Part shown: piece after piece, positions 37,903-57,791 of the stretch | How the letters are laid out: every line of letters begins with the position of its first letter | Position numbering within the stretch: position 1 is the stretch's first letter | NCBI GenBank assembly: GCA_015345905.1 | Contig: JADDTR010000015.1 | Location: forward strand, 725,186 to 789,185 | Source of the DNA: Aotearoamyces nothofagi | Lineage: Eukaryota; Ascomycota; Leotiomycetes; Leotiales; Tympanidaceae | DNA: 64,000 nucleotides | Reading direction: 5' to 3' | Made by a program: the position numbers and the translations under genes | Notes under the pieces: model-generated | Seen by the model: only the letters and a program-made list of their open reading frames with translations | Told to the model about the DNA's origin: nothing | The model's database searches: none

Positions 37903-37919
37903 GCCCGTGTAGCTCAATG

Positions 37920-37971
37920 GTTAGTTCAGTCCAATTCAACAAATAGCGGGGCTTCGTTAACAATTTCTCAG
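37920..37971 (+). other. putative spliceosomal-type intron in the tRNA-Thr D-loop
   Basis: 52 nt with donor GTTAGT, branch-like CGTTAAC and acceptor TTTCTCAG. It splits the conserved GG of the D-loop. After removal the D-arm reads GCTC-AATGGTA-GAGC. Confidence 0.7.
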
Positions 37972-38025
37972 GTAGAGCGCGTCACTAGTAACAAATGTGA
38001 TATGACGAGGTTGCCGGTTCGATTC

Positions 38026-38076
38026 GTAAGTTTATCTTATCTGTATAATTTACTTAATCTTTCTAACATTCATCAG
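38026..38076 (+). other. putative spliceosomal-type intron in the tRNA-Thr T-arm
   Basis: 51 nt with a perfect GTAAGT donor, TTCTAACA branch site and CATCAG acceptor. It lies one base into the 3' strand of the T-stem. Length and signals match introns of neighbouring protein genes. Confidence 0.7.
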
Positions 38077-38088
38077 CGTCCATGGGCA

Positions 38089-40359: not shown

Positions 40360-42357
40360 ATGGCAAAAAGTGGCATATCGCCGTTAGAAGGAAATGGCCC
40401 TCTGGCCATAAATTTGGCTTCAGCAGTGATATCTCTATCTAGGAGATCGTCAGTATCTTCCATAGCAGAAAGGCGCGATGAGCACGTATCAAACGATGGG
40501 GGTGACATTAGTGCTGGCCACCGACCCGTCGCTGATCTGGAAAAATATGACAACGGTAGCAACGACGTTGCATATACTGGGATAAATCCGAGAACTAGAA
40601 AACTATTTTCAATCCAATTCCGAGCTTGGTTTGCACCAAAGGGAAAATTGAGGCCTTTCCGTCTCTTGCGACAAGATGTACGAAGCCTCAAGGAACGATA
40701 TATCTCAGACTGGACTCTGTTCAACCACGTCGTGTTTGCTAGCGCTGTGTATGCGTTTTTCACAAATATATTACCTGGCATTACATTTGCAAATGATTTA
40801 TATGTTCTTACTGGTATGAACTGGGGCACGATTGAGATTGTTTTCAGCACTGGGCTTTGTGGCGTAATCTTTTCTATGTAGGTGTTCACACTCCTATCCA
40901 GGTCTTACTCGTTACCTGCAGCTCATCTCTAACACCCTCATAGTTTTTCTGTCCAGCCATTGACTATTCTCGGCGTCACTGGACCATTTTCTGTCCTGGC
41001 AGAAACAATCTATTCTCTATGCATAAATTCGTTCCATGTAAGATCTACCTCCCAACTTATATATCTCTTAGCTAATAACTCTCAGGTAGACTTTCTCCTG
41101 GTTATGGCGTGGTCACTAATCCATTCAGCATGGATGCATTATCTCCTTGCCATATTTAACGCCCACGATTGGACGATGCAATATGTGACGGACTTCAGCG
41201 CTGAAATCTTCTCCCTTCTTAACAGTATCATCTACTTCCATAAAGCTGTGCAAGAGCTCCAACGCAACCATGATGCTGTCTCCTTCGCCTCGTTTCTATA
41301 TTCTATCATTGGCTCTGTGGGCACTTTCCTCTTAGCCCTCGCTCTCTCAAAAGCCAACTCTTGGAAGCCACTTCTTCGTCATTACATACGCGTGGGTTTG
41401 TCCGAATATGCTGCTGCAATTTCTATCATCATATTCATTGGTATGCCTCATATTGGCGAGCTCGCAGCACTGGATAAGCAGACTCTCAATGTTGAGACTT
41501 CATTTCGACCATCAAGTCCGGACCGTACCGTATTCTTCGTGCAATTTTGGAAACTTGAAGTCTCTTGGATATTCCTCTCTATCATTCCGGGAGCTATCAT
41601 AACAGTCCTCTTCTATTTCGATCATGAAATCAGCAGTATAATCTGCACTGTTGATCGTTATGGGACCAAGAAGCGTAGCGGCTTCGCATGGGATATCATG
41701 CTATTAGGTACAACCACTTCAATCTGCGGCATACTAGGCATTCCTCCTGCGAATGGACTGCTCCCGCAAGCGCCGTTACACTCGGAGTCGCTAATTCATA
41801 TCGAATGGGAGCAGAACGTTACTGCAGCCAACGAGCGTGTAGTAGAAATTAAAGAGGTAACCAGAGTTTACGAGCAAAGATGGTCTGCATTTCTCCAGGC
41901 AGGTGGCATCCTCCTCTTCACCTCGCCTTCCTTTCAACACGTTCTGGGTCTCACACCCACATCTGTCCTAGCCGGACTCTTCATGTTCATGGGTGAGCAA
42001 TCATTGGCCGTGAATCCCATTCTCTATCGCTTCTTCTATATTTTAACACCGCCCTCTGAACTACCACCATTGCCGCAAGGAGTGAAGTCGTATTGGGGGA
42101 TCCACGCATACACATTTCTGCAGATTTTCATGACGGGACTTGTATTTTACGTCACTTTGACAAAGGGAAGCCCTGCATTTCCGATTATAATAATCCTCCT
42201 TGTGCCCTCCAGGTTGCTACTGATGAGACGGTGGTGGAATAGGGAGACGCTACGCTATGTCGATAGATGGGCTTGTAAGCCTGGCACGCCGGAAGATGAT
42301 GAAGATCGAAACATAGGTGTTGCAGGGCCTGCTGATAATGAAATGCAGAGCAACTAA
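40360..42357 (+). CDS. Bor1/SLC4-family anion (borate/bicarbonate) transporter
   Basis: Exons 40360-40877, 40944-41037 and 41086-42357 give 627 residues. Yeast Bor1 exports borate. After a cytosolic N-terminus of about 120 residues, a dozen membrane segments follow, with family blocks ILPGITFANDLYVLTG, GVTGPFSVLAETIYSL, HAWMHYLL-like AWMHYLLAIFNAHDWTMQY and LFYFDHEISSII (the DHxxS segment of SLC4), plus GIPPANGLLPQAPLHSESL. The second intron (41038-41085) is 48 nt, a multiple of three without stop, so retention would add 16 residues; its GTAAGA and CTCAG ends and the family alignment HV|DFLLVMAWSL favour splicing. The substrate (borate or another anion) is inferred from the family. Confidence 0.9.
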
Positions 42358-45977: not shown

Positions 45978-46522
45978 TCCGTCCCTTTTGAAGCATCAGG
46001 AGCGTTCAAATTGGATCTTAGAGATATGGAGGTCTCATGCACGGCAGGCATTATAGCGTTCAATACACGGACGCCCTCTATCGTAGTATAACCTAAGAAA
46101 CAAGTCTACTGCTGCTCATCGCTGTATTCCACGATTGTTTCCTCGCTCTATGGACATACAATAATGCCTTCCGAGACTATTTCTACTATTTAAAAGCAAT
46201 GCAGCTTCCTTTTCGTCATGTATCTATCTGTCGCCTCAATTTTACATTTGAATCATGAAGGGATCGTTACAAATCTACATGGATTTCTCAAACAGAGAAA
46301 ACGGACAAGGCTATGAAGGCCACCAAGGCCGCCAAAGCTGAATGAACAACCCCACTTAGATAGACCCTTTCCCACACTCGCTTGTATGCGAGAATTCCCA
46401 AAGCGACAAAACAAAACGAGCGCACTCGCCAAAATACCTAATAAGTGAAATAAAAAAAAAAGGCAAAAAAGAAAGTGTTCGGTAATCAGAGTTGACTCTG
46501 ACTCGCAGAATGTTTTGCATTA
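45978..46522. other. 3' flank and spacer
   Basis: No gene. A-runs at 46452-46461 and 46465-46470 read as T-runs on the minus strand, 53-72 nt beyond the tRNA-Phe 3' end, and might serve as Pol III terminators. Confidence 0.45.
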
Positions 46523-46667
46523 TGCGGCTTCTGTGGATCGAACACAGTGCCTCCAGATGGACTGTCCGAAGTTGACTTCAGTCTGGCGCTCTCCCACTGA
46601 TTGTTGTGTTAGTGGATGTTCAGCTCATTGTTTGCGGCGGGGACTTCTTACAGTGAGCTAAAGCCGC
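46523..46667 (-). tRNA. tRNA-Phe(GAA) gene with a conventional anticodon-loop intron and a GT-AG spliceosomal-type intron in the D-loop
   Basis: On the minus strand the acceptor stem GCGGCTT (46667-46661) pairs perfectly with AAGCCGC, and discriminator A is at 46523. The D-stem GCTC pairs with GAGC once 46651-46597 is removed, giving loop ACTTGGGA. Anticodon stem CCAGA/TCTGG encloses CTGAAG...A; the anticodon GAA is at 46579-46577, followed by a 17-nt intron (46575-46559) at the canonical 37/38 site. T-arm CTGTG-TTCGATC-CACAG is perfect. The 55-nt D-loop insert begins GTAAGA, has CACTAACA and ends AATCAG. Every helix is intact, so this looks like a functional gene if the insert is spliced. 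A tRNA finder without GT-AG splicing would probably miss or misfold it. Confidence 0.85.
46597..46651 (-). other. putative spliceosomal-type intron in the tRNA-Phe D-loop
   Basis: 55 nt with donor GTAAGA, branch CACTAACA 14 nt before the acceptor AATCAG. Removal joins GCTCACT to TGGGAGAGC and restores a normal D-arm. It occupies a different D-loop position from the tRNA-Thr insert, and the two share no obvious sequence beyond splice signals. Confidence 0.75.
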
Positions 46668-48280
46668 TTATTGGTTGGTGACGAATTTGCTTATTTAAGG
46701 CTATAACAGGGACTTTCCAGATATTTATGGATTTTTGCTTTTTGGCTACGTGTCATTCAATGCCGCCGTCGATATATCTACATATAGTACAGTCTATAGC
46801 GGTTTTACATATCTGTAGTTGAAAGTCTCAAGTAAAGTTGGCAGTGTTGAGAGTTTGTTACTCGTTAAGCAAATTTTAACTGATTGTCTAATGCATCCAT
46901 TTTGACTTTGTAGATTTGCTAATAGTAAGAGCTATACGGCTGGGATACACAAGTCCTTTTAGAACAGAGAGGATGAGGCTGCCTTCCTTCTATCTCTAGC
47001 AGGTAGATACAAGGCGAGATTACAAAGACTCGATCTATTTCTACAACAAATCAGAGCTCCCTTTCCTTGATTGACATTAACTTCCGCCGTGGTAACCTCT
47101 TGTCTACCTTTGGGTCCACGGAGAAATATGGCCACAGGAATTTGCAAACCCCCCTATATAAACATCTACATCTACAAGTAAACGCGAGTTTCTACCTACA
47201 ACTCAGTCGTATACTTCAAAATATAAGAGAAAGCATAGAGGAACACCTATAGCTTCGGAAGTTGCCCTGAGCTGCTATTCAACAATTTTCCCGCTGTCTC
47301 TTGACGCTCAAGGCAGACTTTTCCACCTCGTCTCATCGGAATACAACGAATGACCTCCTACCTGCTTGTTGCCTTACAGAGAATCGTAACATATATACAG
47401 ATAGTAGTTTTCCGGATGTAATAGGCACAACCACCTAAGATTACTACCGTCTCCTCAACTGCTCATAAATCGGAACAAGGGAGTAGTGAGAATAAAAGAC
47501 AGCAGTAATATCCCAGGTTGCAATACTCCGACAATCGCGAGGCCAGCTGCTAGTAGACGCTTCGTTGTATATATGAGATCCTATCTAGCCACACAAGCTA
47601 CAGCACCTCGAACAGTATTTCTTTCGTCTGCTGCTGTACCGATTCCGATAAGGTTGAGAGCTGGACTACATGAAATAAAAATATCAACGCGGTGGTTATA
47701 TTGTATACTGTCTGTTGCATCTCAACGCCGATAATATTATATCTCTCGATAATGTTGAGAGCACTATAAATGGCCTTGACTGCAAATTCTGCCGCTGCTG
47801 ACTGCAATGCCTTGTCGATAGGTCTTGTAAAGTCAATACTGTCCGCCAATATAATAGTAGCATACTATATATCTAGTCACTGTCAAAAATAAAAAAATCG
47901 TACGTTTAACTTATAGTAGAATAAATATACAAAAGCGATAATAAATATCAGAATGAATAAGGCCAGTATACCAAAGGGGTAACTGTCAGAATTGACTATA
48001 GGTAGGGTTTCAATGTAAGTGCATTTGTACAATTATATAAGTGGCTTTTATAGTGCTGGATAAGTGTAAGAGGAGGAAATACATATACAAAGTACAGATG
48101 GCGGTGGTCGTGCTGCAGCCGACCGATGCTATCTCGAAGACGTAATGGCGTTTTGAATCTGCGAATCTTAGACTGCAATCGCATCCACCAAGTGATATTG
48201 TATTTGGGCTGAGTTTGTAGCAGCATATTTTTTTTATATTCGGACTTTGGTGATTGAAAGGAAAGCCGCATGGAAGAGTA
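46668..48280. other. intergenic, no supported gene
   Basis: Transition from gene-dense DNA to the AT-rich compartment. Open frames at 47486-47849 and 47996-48330 are short and without recognised domains. Confidence 0.5.
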
Positions 48281-51464: not shown

Positions 51465-54186
51465 ATCGATTGGGGGAGGAGGACCAAGAGGGTTGGTTTA
51501 TATTGCCGCTGGGGCCGAGGGGGTGCATCGACGCATGTGAGAAATATAGCGCAAGACGAGGATGATATAATGCACAGCATCTACTTACAGCTCAATGTTG
51601 GAGTTGGGGTGCCTGGGAGGATAAGTTGGGGCTAAATAAAGGTTAGTGGCTAGTTAGCCGATACTGTTGCCTGAGACAATTCAATTGCGGCCTGACATGC
51701 AAGGCGAAAGGACTGTAGATCAAAATTGATTAGCGGCATATAGCTTGCTATAAATTTATTCAAGACGTAACTGTATTGTGAACATTGTTAAATTTAGAGT
51801 ATAAACCTTGAGGTCACTCTAGCTATATACTCTTCTTAGATATACTGCCATTTGTATAAACAGTCTAATCTCAGCAGTAAAGTTATATTAAGAAAGAGGA
51901 AAATAGAATCTAGATTGCTATAAACTGCTTTGAGTTCTCTATAAGGAAGAAATTACCTTTGAAGGAGAGATATCTTACTGAGAAGTTTTATACAAATAAG
52001 AGATCTCTCAGCTATAAAGTTATATTCAGAGTAGCTTAGTAATCGATATATACTAGCAATAATAAGATTCTTATAGTAGCAAGTATATTAAAGAAGGATC
52101 AATAGCTTCTAATAGTAAAGATATCAACAGCTTTATTCTCTAGAGATTAGACAAGTATTACAATTATATATATCTAGTCTAACTTCTCTAGATATTATAT
52201 TATATATATATAAAACTCTATAGTATCTCTAAATAACCTTAATTCTTTTCTCCTTTACTAGTATTATTTGAATATCAATATTGATATAACTCTATCTTGC
52301 TAGAATCTATATAAATCTTCTAAAGCTACTTGATATAGTATTGCTGCTATATATCTCTCTATTTATCTATTTAATAATAGAGAGCTTTAATAGAGAAAGA
52401 CTTATATCAATAAGTAATTAGATAAATATTTTATTACTACTGAAAGAGAAGCTTAGAGAGTCTTAATATATTATTTCTCCTCTATCTCTATCTATACTAA
52501 AGATAATTTAGTTGATATATCAAAGAGATCAAGAGTATCTATTAATATATTAGAGAGATTAAAAATATCTATTAATATTAATATTATAGTCTTCTTTCTA
52601 AATAGTATTATAAGATCTTTATTTACTTATTATAATATAAAGTTGAATAATAATAATTTAGTAATAGTTGACCTTTTGGTTTATAAAAAATTAGAATATA
52701 AAGATATATTAGCTAAGGATTATCTAATTAGTATAGAAACTGATTTTTAAGAAATTAGAAAGCTTTAGAAGTTTAAAGCTCTTAAATATCTCTCTTCTAA
52801 ATAAGATACTACTATAGTAGTACTATAGTTAAAGTCTAGAGCTCTAGCTTCTAGATAATTATATAGCTCTAGAATACTAGCTTTAGATAATTATATATAT
52901 TAATTATATATATTTATAGAAAAGCTTTCTTATAAATTCTTCTAGAAGGCTAACTATTACTAGATTACTAATCTATTATTTCTATATTAATAAGACCTTA
53001 TAATATTATTAAGAAAGAAGGCTATAACTCTAGTTTTAATAAATACTTCTAACCTTTCTAATATACTAAATAAGTTGTCTTTAGTATAGTTGAAAATAGA
53101 AAAGGAACAATTTGTTAAAACTCTTTAAATCTTTTTATTAATAATAATAGAATACTCTTTTATATATTTACTAATATAGATCTTTCTTTACTAAAGCTCT
53201 CTTTAATTAAATAAAGAAAAATATACTTTATAGAGTAAAATATTTCAATAAATTATTATCTAATAAGTAGAAGAGATTTATAAACTATAGAAGTTTTAAT
53301 AAAAGAAAAGAGTTATTTATCTAGAAGAGTAAAAGTAGATCAATTAATAAATACTTGTAATAGAATAAAGAATATAGAAAATCTAGATATTAAATCTTCT
53401 AACTACAATTATACTATAATTTCTAAATAGTAGACTTAAAGATCTTTATATATTAAAGTCTTCTTAACTATTATTACTAAATATTAGTTGTCTATTAATA
53501 ATAGTTCTATAATTAAGTATACTATTATTAATATAATTCTCTTTTAGCTATAGCTTTGATTTATTCTAAATGAAATTAAAGAAGCCTTTAATATTTAGAA
53601 TAGAGAAGAGTAATATCTATTTCTAGATTATAGATATAGAGGATTACTTTATATAGAATTATATAGTAGATTTAATTCTTCAAATATTATATACTTTGAT
53701 TTTTAAATTGTCTATATTATAGTCTTTAGAACTAGACTATAAATAAATAGTCTAGTCTAGTTCTAGAGATCTTAGACTATTTCTTTTCTAAATACTCTAA
53801 TTACTACTTTTTTTACAATTCTAATACTAAAAGTATTACTATTAAATATTACTATTCTATATAGATAAGAAAAGTTATAAAACCCTTTTTCTAAAAATAG
53901 TTATAGAAGTTCTAAAAATAGCTCTTTATAGTCTAGATTAAACTATATAGTCTAGTTTAGTCTAAACTAAACTATTTCTAGAAATAGTCTCTATTTTCTA
54001 TTTAAGACTAGACTGTTTATTTATAGTCTAGTTTAGTCTAGACCTAAATAGTCTAGTCTTTAAAACAGTCTATAAATTACTTTTAAGACTAGATTAGACT
54101 AGACTATTAACTAGTCTATATTTTATACTAAATAAATATTAAATTAGCTAAGTAAAATATATCAAATTCTAAAGTATATATTAAGA

Positions 54187-54330
54187 ATAATACTCTTTAA
54201 AATAGTACTCTTTAAAATAGTACTCTTTAAAATAGTACTCTTTAAAATAGTACTCTTTAAAATAGTATAATTTAAAATATAGCTTTTTAAAATAGAGCTC
54301 TTTAAAGTAGTACTACTTAAAATAACATTT
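54187..54330. repeat. 16-bp tandem repeat
   Basis: Unit AATAGTACTCTTTAAA, repeated about five times almost perfectly and then with variants, so it arose after or escaped much of the surrounding decay. Confidence 0.9.
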
Positions 54331-54345
54331 AGAATAGATTTTAGA

Positions 54346-54492
54346 ATATATATATAGATAAATACCTTTATATTATTATATCTCTTAGTAGGTTTTAATA
54401 TATATATATAGACAAATATATCTCTTAATAGATTTTAGTATATAGATATAGACAAAGATATCTCTTAGCAGGTTTTAGTATATATATATAGC
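54346..54492. repeat. tandem repeat of about 48 bp, three copies
   Basis: Three copies of a unit with tatatatagacaaa, tatctctta and aggttttagta segments. The third copy keeps 'gcagg' where earlier copies have 'gtagg' or 'ataga', again transitions. Confidence 0.7.
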
Positions 54493-54696
54493 TTGTACCT
54501 TGATGTATTGATCTAAAGTACACTTAGCAAAACAGTCTTAATATATAAGATATATATATAAAAGAATGATAATTTTAAATAACAGAAGAGAGCTTAGAGA
54601 TAGCTACAGTACTATACGTTCTCAAAGAATCTTATACTAACGCCCTTCCCTCTATATCTTCTCATCTAGTAAAGAGACATCTAGTGATAATAGATT

Positions 54697-55269
54697 TGTT
54701 GGTGGCCTATAAGGCCTGATGGGACAGCGTTTTGAGGCGCATTGAGTCAATCTGATATACATCGGGGTATTGATTAGTCTCCTCGAAACCTAGGCGGTAA
54801 AGTGTGAGCGGTATATGCCTTACCCCAACAACGTGTATTCGTTGACCTCTGCTGGTAAGTTAGATGGAGCTCAGTGGTGTGTGGTGGCGGATGCAGCTAC
54901 TTGGCAGTCCTGACTCACCGCGGGCACTGGAACCTGTTCCGGTCTGGGTTCTGTTCTCAAATTCAGGCCCCGCTTGCTCTATTGGCTTTGTGTTCTATTC
55001 TTGGCCTTCTTACAATATCCATCATTACTTAGATCCTCCACTATAATTATCCAGCCACCGTAAGCTAAACTAGCCTTGAATGAGTCTGACACTGTGTTTC
55101 TACGTCGATCAGCCTTTGCACGCAACAATCCTTACTATACGCCTACTTTTACCTAGTCCGCGTTGACGTCAATTCGTTTTCGTGAGGCATCCCAAACACT
55201 CAGGATTGTAAAACTTGAATTCAAGTCTTAACTCACGGTATCTCCCGAGTTCCCATTCGGGGCGTTACA
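54697..55269. mobile_element. possible solo LTR or decayed retroelement end
   Basis: A 573-bp normal-GC island starts TGTTGG and ends GTTACA, so it has TG...CA ends. On the minus strand it begins TGTAACGCCCC, like some fungal Gypsy LTRs. I find no matching target-site duplication and no partner LTR, so this is tentative. Confidence 0.25.
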
Positions 55270-55529
55270 ATGAAAAGATTGCCCTGTTCGGCTCAAACGT
55301 ACTAAGTTACTAGACGTCCCAAAGACTTACACTCCCGACTGCATGCAATGGACTTGACGTGAACCCGCACACTTGATGCTAGATGAAACCCTGCATCAAT
55401 TAAGGTGCCTCCCTAGCTAATACTATACTTTATGCCCTAGCAATGCCCGCTCAATCTCCTCTTCGAACCGGGATCGCTTGCTCTCAAAAATACACAGTTG
55501 AACAAATATAAAACGACCTGAACATTGGA

Positions 55530-57791
55530 TTATATCTTCGTAAACACCCCACGGGAAATAACGTCGTGGATTTCTGCAACGTGTTGATCCGGTAAGATGC
55601 TGGAGCCGCCTGGTTTCTGCAATATTTTGAATGACCCATTCTCTTCCATCACGGTCTTCGGCCGGTCTCCCAGTTGGTTCGCGGATCTTTGCTGAAGCAC
55701 CATCCTGTGTCGGCCAGTGCCTTCGGGGTGTCGTTTGGGCGGGGATAAGCGAGCCCGCTCGAAATCAATCAACATTACCCCATCCCGCTCTCGGCTCCAG
55801 AGAATGTTGGGTCCACGGAGGTCACCGTGTACCACCCCCAAAAGAGAGATCTCTCCTGCCGACGACCGCACCTGCTCGTGAATGATTCGACGCGTGTCTT
55901 CCGTATCAGCCACCGCTTCTTCGCCCACCCACGCCAGCATCATCATGTGCTGGATTCGAACCCCCACATCCAGATAATATACCTTGGGCAGATCAATGTT
56001 TCCCAGATACACCGGAATGACAGAACCCTGAAGACGTTCCAGCCGTCGATAGACCCGCCCTTCATGGCGGAGATCGTTCACAAAAGCTTTGACTGTCCCT
56101 TTGGCCACCAGCGTGTACCCGAACCGTCTTAAGGTGATCTTGAAGAGAGCTCCCCGCGCCCCTTGCTTTCCCAACGGCTCGCAGTCATGGTCCCGGTCCT
56201 CTCCAAGCTGGTGTTCAATTAATCGCTTGAACTCGCGCCGGGCGATCGGATGCCCCTTATCGTTGGCGTTCTTCCGATGAAGTCTCACGTTTGGACAGTT
56301 CTCATCCAGCCCCGTTCGTCGTGTCAATCCCAGAAGACACGCTTGCGTGCAGTATTGTCGAGGTCCGGCGTCGACTTGTGGGTTCTTACCCTTCGGTCGT
56401 GCGATCTCCTTCCCTTTTGACGTTCCACTAGACTTCGTGGGCGTCTCGGGCCTGTCAGTGCTCTCATCTGAGTCATCCGACGAACGGTAAGCAGCATCCT
56501 CGGCGACCACTTCGTCACCACTGCAACTGCTCCGTGTCCGTCTTTTTCGAAGCAAATATGGCGACCGAGGATTGATGGGATATTGCCGACCCTTGAAAGC
56601 GGACGAACGAGGGGTGGCTTTTCGCTCCTCCTCGGGGATCTGTCGAAGCACTGCTTCGTAATCGACTTCATACCTCGGGAGCAGGCGGATCGCCTCGTCC
56701 CGCCACCGCTGACTGCGTGATGAAGACATCAGGGCCCTCAAGCAGAAGCCGAGCATTTGGGAGATCGCAGTGCGTGAATACAGAAACCCATGCTCGTCTT
56801 CGGTCTCAATCTCCAGATTTGGCTCGGCCAGGTGGTAGTACACTGTGGTCGGGTCATCTTCTCTCACTTGCAGGAAGACATGGGCAACTCCTGTGCTGAT
56901 GCAGCCGTATTCCACACCGCTCTCGATCATCTGCGAGAAGGTCTGCGTCACCACCGCTGCCGCAAGCAGGTCGGCGTTGTAGTTCAGCTTCTCCTCCTCA
57001 TCGGTAGGAATGGTCGTTCGGTTCACGACCTCTTCCAGCACATTCATGGCGCGCAATCCGGCCCGAAGATTATGGACCGAGAGTTTGTGAGGCGCTTTGT
57101 ATTCCAAGATCAACAGAAGACTGTCCATTCCCTCCGTTCTTCGGTACACACAGATCTGATCCGCGTACATCGGCTTCGCAGTCACCATGGCCGAAGGACT
57201 ACGATTTGGTGAGATGGCGCGTTCAAGGTGTAAGCGTTGTTGAACTTCCTCCGCCAAATCACTCAAGGTGTTGGTATGATTCTCAAAGAAGACACCATCA
57301 TCTAGGCCGAAAGACTCGCGAGCTTCTGGTATTGCGGACAGTTCCGACATGATCTCGCTGACATGATCCTCGACCGCAAAGCGCTCGTAGCTTTCTAGAT
57401 CTTTCTCGCTTGCCAGCTTCCGACCGCAAACCCGTCGACCCAGCTCCTCCAAGTATATGACCGGACCGAAAACTCGAGGGGGTGGTGTGGACGGAGGGTG
57501 AAAGTAGGAATACGCCTCGTCGAAATGCTGTTGCTGTGTCTGAGGGAATTCTTCCCATGGTCGCAGATGGACAGGACAGATTCGTCGCTTCGGGCTGGTG
57601 ATGCTGCCTTTTGTGCTCAGAGATTTGTTGGTCTGAACCTTCAATGGGTTGGAAAGATGGTTGTGGGCGCTTCTGATGAACTCTTTGAATGTCGTGGGCC
57701 TGTTCCGTTGACGTTCTTCTCGCGTTTCTTGCTCTGCTTGCTGTAGTTGTTCCAGAAGTCGTTGAACTTCCGATTCCCGTCGGGAAGCCAT
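55530..57791 (-). CDS. PD-(D/E)XK nuclease-like domain fused to a kinase-like domain
   Basis: A single exon of 753 residues, intact, with normal GC inside AT-rich flanks. Residues 1-30 look coiled-coil. Residues about 110-330 form a restriction-endonuclease-like domain: Asp211 in YADQICVY, then LILEYKAPHK with E230-x-K232, then SGVEYGCISTGVAHVFL. A charged disordered linker spans 385-475. A Cys/His cluster follows (YCTQACLLGL...CPN...LH, 480-505). The kinase-like domain has a Gly-rich loop at 541-548, Lys564 in LVAKGT, HGDLRGPNIL (H655, D657, N662) and LIDFERA (D676), so phosphotransfer is possible. Such nuclease-kinase fusions are expanded in fungi and have been linked to mobile elements and effector-like proteins; the function here is unknown. 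Block D of the repeat family lies 80 bp upstream and could supply its promoter. Confidence 0.8.
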   Translation of the reverse strand: MASRRESEVQRLLEQLQQAEQETREERQRNRPTTFKEFIRSAHNHLSNPLKVQTNKSLSTKGSITSPKRRICPVHLRPWEEFPQTQQQHFDEAYSYFHPPSTPPPRVFGPVIYLEELGRRVCGRKLASEKDLESYERFAVEDHVSEIMSELSAIPEARESFGLDDGVFFENHTNTLSDLAEEVQQRLHLERAISPNRSPSAMVTAKPMYADQICVYRRTEGMDSLLLILEYKAPHKLSVHNLRAGLRAMNVLEEVVNRTTIPTDEEEKLNYNADLLAAAVVTQTFSQMIESGVEYGCISTGVAHVFLQVREDDPTTVYYHLAEPNLEIETEDEHGFLYSRTAISQMLGFCLRALMSSSRSQRWRDEAIRLLPRYEVDYEAVLRQIPEEERKATPRSSAFKGRQYPINPRSPYLLRKRRTRSSCSGDEVVAEDAAYRSSDDSDESTDRPETPTKSSGTSKGKEIARPKGKNPQVDAGPRQYCTQACLLGLTRRTGLDENCPNVRLHRKNANDKGHPIARREFKRLIEHQLGEDRDHDCEPLGKQGARGALFKITLRRFGYTLVAKGTVKAFVNDLRHEGRVYRRLERLQGSVIPVYLGNIDLPKVYYLDVGVRIQHMMMLAWVGEEAVADTEDTRRIIHEQVRSSAGEISLLGVVHGDLRGPNILWSRERDGVMLIDFERARLSPPKRHPEGTGRHRMVLQQRSANQLGDRPKTVMEENGSFKILQKPGGSSILPDQHVAEIHDVISRGVFTKI

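Follow-up and report, generated by a model that had tools for sequence, protein, structure and literature searches.

According to textbooks, the excision of tRNA introns is the task of a dedicated endonuclease and a ligase. Introns of the mRNA type are reportedly found in U6 snRNA genes, both in Schizosaccharomyces pombe and in surveys of fungal U6; U6 is a product of RNA polymerase III, and rDNA transcripts come from RNA polymerase I. Spliceosomal introns in the nuclear rDNA of ascomycetes are the subject of a 1993 title cited in PMC11782384. As to tRNA genes themselves, the available parts of two sources describe ectopic introns in the D- and T-arms for Cyanidioschyzon merolae and the Guillardia theta nucleomorph (PMC3978253, PMC4090602), while a 2026 review, in its available part, classes tRNA splicing as spliceosome-independent (PMC13149111). 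Spliceosomal introns are known in other non-coding RNA genes; tRNA genes as their hosts are, to our knowledge, new, and among titles and abstract openings, with most subscription papers outside the coverage, we recognised none that describes spliceosomal introns of tRNA genes.

The locus described here lies in a window of 64,000 nucleotides of Aotearoamyces nothofagi DNA. Positions 46523..46667 hold a tRNA-Phe(GAA) gene with two introns on the reverse strand; the original prediction of such a gene with a GT-AG insert in its D-loop was correct in both sequence and coordinates. Read along the reverse strand, the gene consists of exon 1 (nt 1-16, GCGGCTTTAGCTCACT, 46652..46667), a D-loop GT-AG intron of 55 nt that splits the A box (GTAAGA...CACTAACA...AATCAG, 46597..46651), exon 2 with the anticodon GAA (nt 17-37, TGGGAGAGCGCCAGACTGAAG, 46576..46596), a canonical 37/38 intron of 17 nt (46559..46575) and exon 3 (nt 38-73, ATCTGGAGGCACTGTGTTCGATCCACAGAAGCCGCA, 46523..46558). 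The 55-nt insert contains CTAAC, with the branch A 12 nt before the 3' end, and ends in CAG. Removal of both inserts leaves a 73-nt tRNA whose stems are paired at 7/7, 4/4, 5/5 and 5/5 positions. On the same strand, an ATAAGC element lies upstream at -27 to -22 (46689..46694), and a T6 run, probably an RNA polymerase III terminator, follows 52 nt 3' of the gene (46465..46470).

In the unprocessed window no tRNA is reported by ARAGORN, and none by Rfam at the gathering cut-off; with Rfam extended down to E = 10 there were 11 matches, none of them a tRNA. ARAGORN names the gene only once the GT-AG insert has been removed, and then calls tRNA-Phe(gaa) with a 17-nt intron. When TTCRA T-loops served as anchors for a scan across the whole window, Phe scored 55 and the runner-up 38, and when any NTC T-loop was accepted, two candidates from an AT-rich block came out at 43 and 45. 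Scanning the window for GT-AG segments with loose stems yielded Phe, at 62, as the sole candidate scoring at least 45. The Phe cloverleaf in the window is more than chance.

The window also contains a tRNA-Thr(AGT) gene with three introns (37903..38088, forward strand). Here the original prediction was right about the gene and about the presence of a GT-AG intron, and wrong about their number, which is two rather than one. The first, of 52 nt, lies in the D-loop after nt 17 (GTTAGT...TTAAC...CAG, 37920..37971); the second, of 51 nt, lies in the T-arm after nt 60 and splits the B box (GTAAGT...CTAAC...CAG, 38026..38076). The canonical 37/38 intron of this gene has 11 nt (37991..38001), with ends that are ambiguous by one base, and all three lie on the forward strand; a single predicted precursor would thus carry two GT-AG introns together with one of the endonuclease type. 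The gene was located by BLAST of the 52 tRNAs recovered up to then. T-arm-anchored scans had missed it because the second GT-AG intron splits its T-arm, and scans for intact T-arms also missed three further T-arm cases, namely Ser-AGA, Asn-GTT and Ala-TGC.

The search was extended to the genome (25.5 Mb in 55 contigs). Loci were collected with the Rfam tRNA profile, with B-box patterns and by BLAST of mature tRNAs, and part of these loci were then examined. The Rfam tRNA search, in which 63 of 791 candidates were scored, missed regular genes such as Asp-GTC. Genes were evaluated with a purpose-written cloverleaf scorer: uninterrupted genes were counted at a score of at least 45, while the scan for interrupted genes allowed one or two GT-AG segments and demanded GT-AG ends and a branch motif. 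This incomplete search of the genome found at least 19 tRNA genes with 20 GT-AG inserts, versus at least 37 genes without, and the suggestion of a genome-wide habit is thereby borne out. The interrupted genes are those for Phe (two), iMet, Cys, His, Gln-TTG, Gln-CTG, Lys-CTT (two), Thr-TGT, Thr-AGT, Leu-AAG, Ala-AGC, Ala-TGC, Ser-GCT, Ser-AGA, Asn-GTT, Gly-CCC and Arg-TCG; Trp, Val-AAC, Ile-TAT and Arg-CCT are among the anticodons for which the incomplete search located no gene. The GT-AG scan gave no match on reversed versions of the same sequences. The plain B-box pattern alone proves nothing, because it gave no more matches than the reversed control (151 vs 152, 85 vs 86 and 63 vs 133), and only folded, scored genes were counted.

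The expectation that annotation would under-count such genes held as well: ARAGORN named none of the 19 interrupted genes correctly as they stand and called five of them something else, and after removal of the inserts it was right for 18, which then show a full cloverleaf with the conserved bases. Ala-TGC is weak, with one mismatch in the acceptor stem, and ARAGORN stays silent on it even after removal. Canonical 37/38 introns are present in 32/37 uninterrupted and in 14/19 interrupted genes; the longest of this kind that we saw measure 72 nt and 83 nt (loci L033 and L117).

The 20 GT-AG inserts are 50-76 nt long, with a median of 55.5. All of them run from GT to AG with an extended 5' splice site, GT-AG having been demanded by the scan. 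Their 5' ends read GTAAG(T/C/A) in 13 cases, GTATG(T/G) in three, GTTAGT in two, and GTCAGT and GTGAGT in one each, and they end in CAG (10), TAG (7) or AAG (3). A CTRAY motif whose A lies 9-15 nt before the 3' end occurs in 17/20 (shuffles: mean 0.9, maximum 5), and strict CTAAC in 11/20 (shuffles: mean 0.35, maximum 3); both counts are partly selected, because the branch motif belonged to the search rule, and the free-ends tests described below were made without it. As a yardstick, two mRNA introns of an HCO3-transporter gene, also in the window, are built in this way: one has 66 nt (GTAGGT...CTAAC, with the branch A at 11 nt from the 3' end; 40878..40943, forward strand), the other 48 nt (GTAAGA...CTAAT, with the branch A at 10 nt from the 3' end; 41038..41085, forward strand), and the joined reading frames are open for both. 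A WD40 gene has two likely introns of 43 and 45 nt, with CTAAC/CTAAT at 11 and 10 nt; they start with GTATTC and GTAAAT, and remain putative insofar as joined frames were shown for the HCO3-transporter introns only.

In the free-ends test, any segment of 45-80 nt could be removed from 106 T-arm candidates in the examined loci, and 256 end pairs were compared. Thirty-seven candidates were already tRNAs and were set aside, 15 became tRNAs upon removal, and 54 did not. Removal of a GT-AG segment works in all 15, compared with 7 for the next best end pairs and a mean of 1.4 over the 256 pairs. When the same 15 genes were analysed at finer resolution, GT-AG was among the top-scoring removals in 12, with at most four removals tied in seven of them; for Ala-AGC, Thr-TGT and His, a different removal scores slightly above the GT-AG one. 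In the T-arm inserts of Ser-AGA, Asn-GTT, Ala-TGC and Thr-AGT, GT-AG falls within the 5, 2, 2 and 1 top removals, respectively. The free-ends test is a better control than excision with shifted ends: when the ends of the removed segment are shifted by 5-12 nt, ARAGORN still names 2-12 of the 15 genes, because the length of the D-loop is flexible, and the cloverleaf alone therefore does not fix the ends of the inserts.

The inserts follow mature nucleotides 8, 9, 10, 13, 15, 16, 17, 17, 18, 18, 18, 23, 23, 26, 27, 28, 52, 56, 59 and 60. The A-box stretch (8-19) accounts for eleven of them; the last four belong to the T-arm and lie inside the B box or on its border. The A box or the B box is split in many interrupted genes. 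In Gln-TTG, the tRNA part of the first exon is 8 nt long. None of the 20, among which T-arm cases are under-detected, lies in the acceptor stem or in nt 29-51; such sparing of the anticodon arm would fit with keeping the substrate of the endonuclease intact. Upstream of the genes, an exact ATAAGC is found in 5/19 interrupted and 17/37 uninterrupted genes, and in 1.9% of shuffles. With up to one mismatch the figures are 14/19 and 34/37, a match that 31% of shuffles also give and that is hence common by chance, and five of the 19 interrupted genes are without a clear upstream element. A T5 run occurs within 70 nt 3' of all 19 interrupted genes, a count made without a random control. Both U6 loci above the Rfam cut-off (C3:1443403-1443509 and C1:1441107-1441217) contain a GC-AG insert (GCAAGTCG...CTAAC...AG) after CAATTTGAAACG.

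Whether the interrupted genes serve the cell was approached through their copies and their exons. BLAST with the 14 mature tRNAs then known, a query set that leaves Ser-AGA copies outside and from which diverged uninterrupted copies could escape, returned one locus each, interrupted, for iMet, Cys, His, Gln-TTG, Gln-CTG, Thr-TGT, Gly-CCC and Arg-TCG, and two of two interrupted loci for Lys-CTT. Uninterrupted Phe genes that cover the need, which according to the original prediction would make the locus in the window just a disrupted copy, have so far not turned up: BLAST gave two Phe loci in all, and each of them is interrupted. Neither BLAST nor the incomplete genome scan gave an uninterrupted copy of iMet, Phe, Cys, His or Gln. 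Leu-AAG, Ser-GCT, Ala-AGC, Ala-TGC, Asn-GTT and Thr-AGT do have uninterrupted sister genes, and the interrupted copies of these six could therefore be dispensable.

The mature tRNAs of the two Phe genes are identical at 73/73 positions, their canonical introns at 16/17, and their trailers are partly conserved, while their GT-AG introns have diverged and are offset by one base. Between the two Lys-CTT genes there are differences at 3/73 nt, two of which form a compensated pair in the anticodon stem (G31-C39 / A31-T39). Thr-AGT and its uninterrupted sister (L009) differ at 4/72 nt, all in the acceptor stem, where both affected pairs are still paired: one goes from C-G to T-A, a full compensation, and the other from T-A to G-T, and the two halves of these pairs flank both GT-AG introns. 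Identity and compensation of this kind characterise genes whose mature product remains under selection. The 3' trailers of both Phe genes also share a conserved possible hairpin (CTGCGAGTCAGAGTC.ACTCTGATTA) ahead of the T run, in the window at 46471-46522 and in the second gene at locus L167.

Judging from the sequence, we consider it very probable that these are functional nuclear tRNA genes of RNA polymerase III with U2-type spliceosomal introns, and that their transcripts are processed by the spliceosome as well as by the tRNA endonuclease. The direct basis consists of the anatomy of the genes, the grammar of the splice signals, the preference for GT-AG over all other ends, the conservation of the exons, and several tRNAs for which no uninterrupted copy was detected. 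From the anatomy and the parallel with U6 we infer the splicing itself, the spliceosome as its agent, the polymerase and the order of the steps. RNA polymerase III would transcribe the genes by means of a TATA-like element upstream (ATAAGC near -25), aided by the remaining box contacts, and a tolerated spacing of the boxes would keep transcription going in spite of a split A box or, in some genes, a split B box. The spliceosome would then take the GT-AG intron or introns, located either within the 5' half (after nt 8-28) or within the T-arm, out of the precursor, and the tRNA splicing endonuclease and ligase would take out the separate 37/38 intron where there is one, with the ends trimmed as usual. 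We further think it quite likely that this is a lineage whose tRNA production, including that from the sole initiator-tRNA gene found, depends on the spliceosome, and in which single precursors pass through both splicing machines.

The introns might instead be of a non-canonical kind, with the tRNA splicing endonuclease acting on bulge-helix-bulge motifs as it does in archaea and in the red alga C. merolae, and D- and T-arm introns of the endonuclease kind do occur in some algae, nucleomorphs and archaea according to the available parts of the sources (PMC3978253, PMC4090602); the 14 interrupted genes that also have a canonical 37/38 intron would fit with this. However, the bulge-helix-bulge motif (two 3-nt bulges and a 4-bp helix) is not seen, with 4.95/12 pairs formed compared to 4.57 (sd 1.61) in shuffled introns, and all 20 inserts have GT-AG ends, with a branch motif at the distance found in mRNA introns in 17 of them. 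Endonuclease introns are not known to follow a GT-AG or branch-site rule. We give this explanation next to no credence. That the interrupted loci are dead, disrupted copies, with intact genes elsewhere serving the cell, draws on the six classes with uninterrupted sisters, on the acceptor mismatch of Ala-TGC and on a gene search that was not exhaustive. It leaves iMet, Phe, Cys, His and Gln without an uninterrupted copy found, as well as exons that are identical or compensated while the introns diverge; moreover, decay would not have interrupted every one of these copies with a GT-AG segment of 50-76 nt, and we regard this possibility as highly improbable.

Spliceosomal splicing is generally coupled to transcription by RNA polymerase II, and 11/20 introns lie within the A-box stretch; the GT-AG introns could thus be real and yet belong to transcripts of RNA polymerase II, with the tRNA released from a longer capped precursor. 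The T5 runs within 70 nt of all 19 genes, the upstream element that many of them have in common with uninterrupted genes, and the presence of such an intron in U6 here all speak against this, so that we find it unlikely. Paralogues with and without an insert, together with the varying positions of the inserts, could also point to copies of a mobile or introner-type element that spread recently into tRNA genes. Yet each of the 15 introns (of 20) that were searched against the genome matches only its own locus, and their pairwise similarity is low, with best local scores of 17; no recent introner burst is thus seen among them, and we hold such a spread to be very unlikely, while an old origin of the introner type is possible. 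Since the GT-AG intron of the second Phe gene is offset from this one by a single base, both genes may have inherited the Phe intron from a common ancestor, and the recent independent insertion that had been supposed is not needed to account for it. For the six interrupted classes with an uninterrupted sister in this one genome, the pattern fits gain as well as loss.

Spliceosomal introns in tRNA genes, the reading that we prefer, would resemble the fungal U6 introns in being short, in having a branch site and an AG end, and in residing in small-RNA genes of RNA polymerase III, with both U6 loci here being of the GC-AG type. They would differ from them in that their hosts are tRNAs, which have splicing enzymes of their own, and in that many genes and positions are affected rather than one. 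With the introns in ascomycete nuclear rDNA they share the messenger-type form, a structural RNA gene as host and the occurrence in filamentous ascomycetes; rDNA is read by RNA polymerase I, whereas tRNA genes are read by RNA polymerase III and have their promoter inside the interrupted stretch. The ectopic introns of C. merolae and G. theta, as the accessible parts of the sources present them, are similar as regards inserts in the D- and T-arms, several introns per gene, a large share of interrupted genes and a tRNA-Phe with two introns. In contrast, the same parts give 3-24 nt for the Guillardia introns and tie those of C. merolae to the bulge-helix-bulge, while the inserts found here have 50-76 nt, GT-AG ends and a branch site, and lack that motif. 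Canonical eukaryotic 37/38 introns are present here too; the GT-AG introns differ from them in location and in the rules that they obey, and would require a different machine.

If true, this arrangement would join mRNA splicing to the capacity for translation, and would violate the rule by which the endonuclease is in charge of nuclear tRNA introns. The spliceosome would be required for essential tRNAs, acting on short and probably uncapped transcripts of RNA polymerase III. This would bear on how the spliceosome finds introns without coupling to RNA polymerase II, on how RNA polymerase III copes with a split internal promoter, and on the ways in which genes acquire introns. For annotation, it would mean that such genes are silently lost, and that a missing initiator, Cys or His tRNA inferred for such fungi could be wrong.

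Some further observations were made along the way. In a single-gene tree of 37 rows, the HCO3-transporter groups with Leotiomycetes and environmental sequences with a support of 100/100, and it falls outside the clade holding the named Leotiomycetes. The AT-rich block of the window (52001-56000) has 30% GC, compared to 45-57% in the preceding 4-kb blocks, and is possibly a mutated repeat region. A B-box match at position 55952 was rejected as a tRNA, as it sits within a long open frame. One locus (L035, C13:638000-638750) holds an adjoining pair of tRNA-Ala(AGC) genes, one with a GT-AG intron and one without. About 25-30 nt 3' of tRNA-His (L114) there is a T-arm-like stretch, GATGGTTCAAATCCATC, which is perhaps a tRNA remnant. 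Finally, two tandem tRNA-Gly(TCC)-like genes were read by eye at another locus (L139) and are outside the 37 counted; their acceptor stems have two adjacent T-T mismatches in common (GCTTCCG/CGGTTGC).
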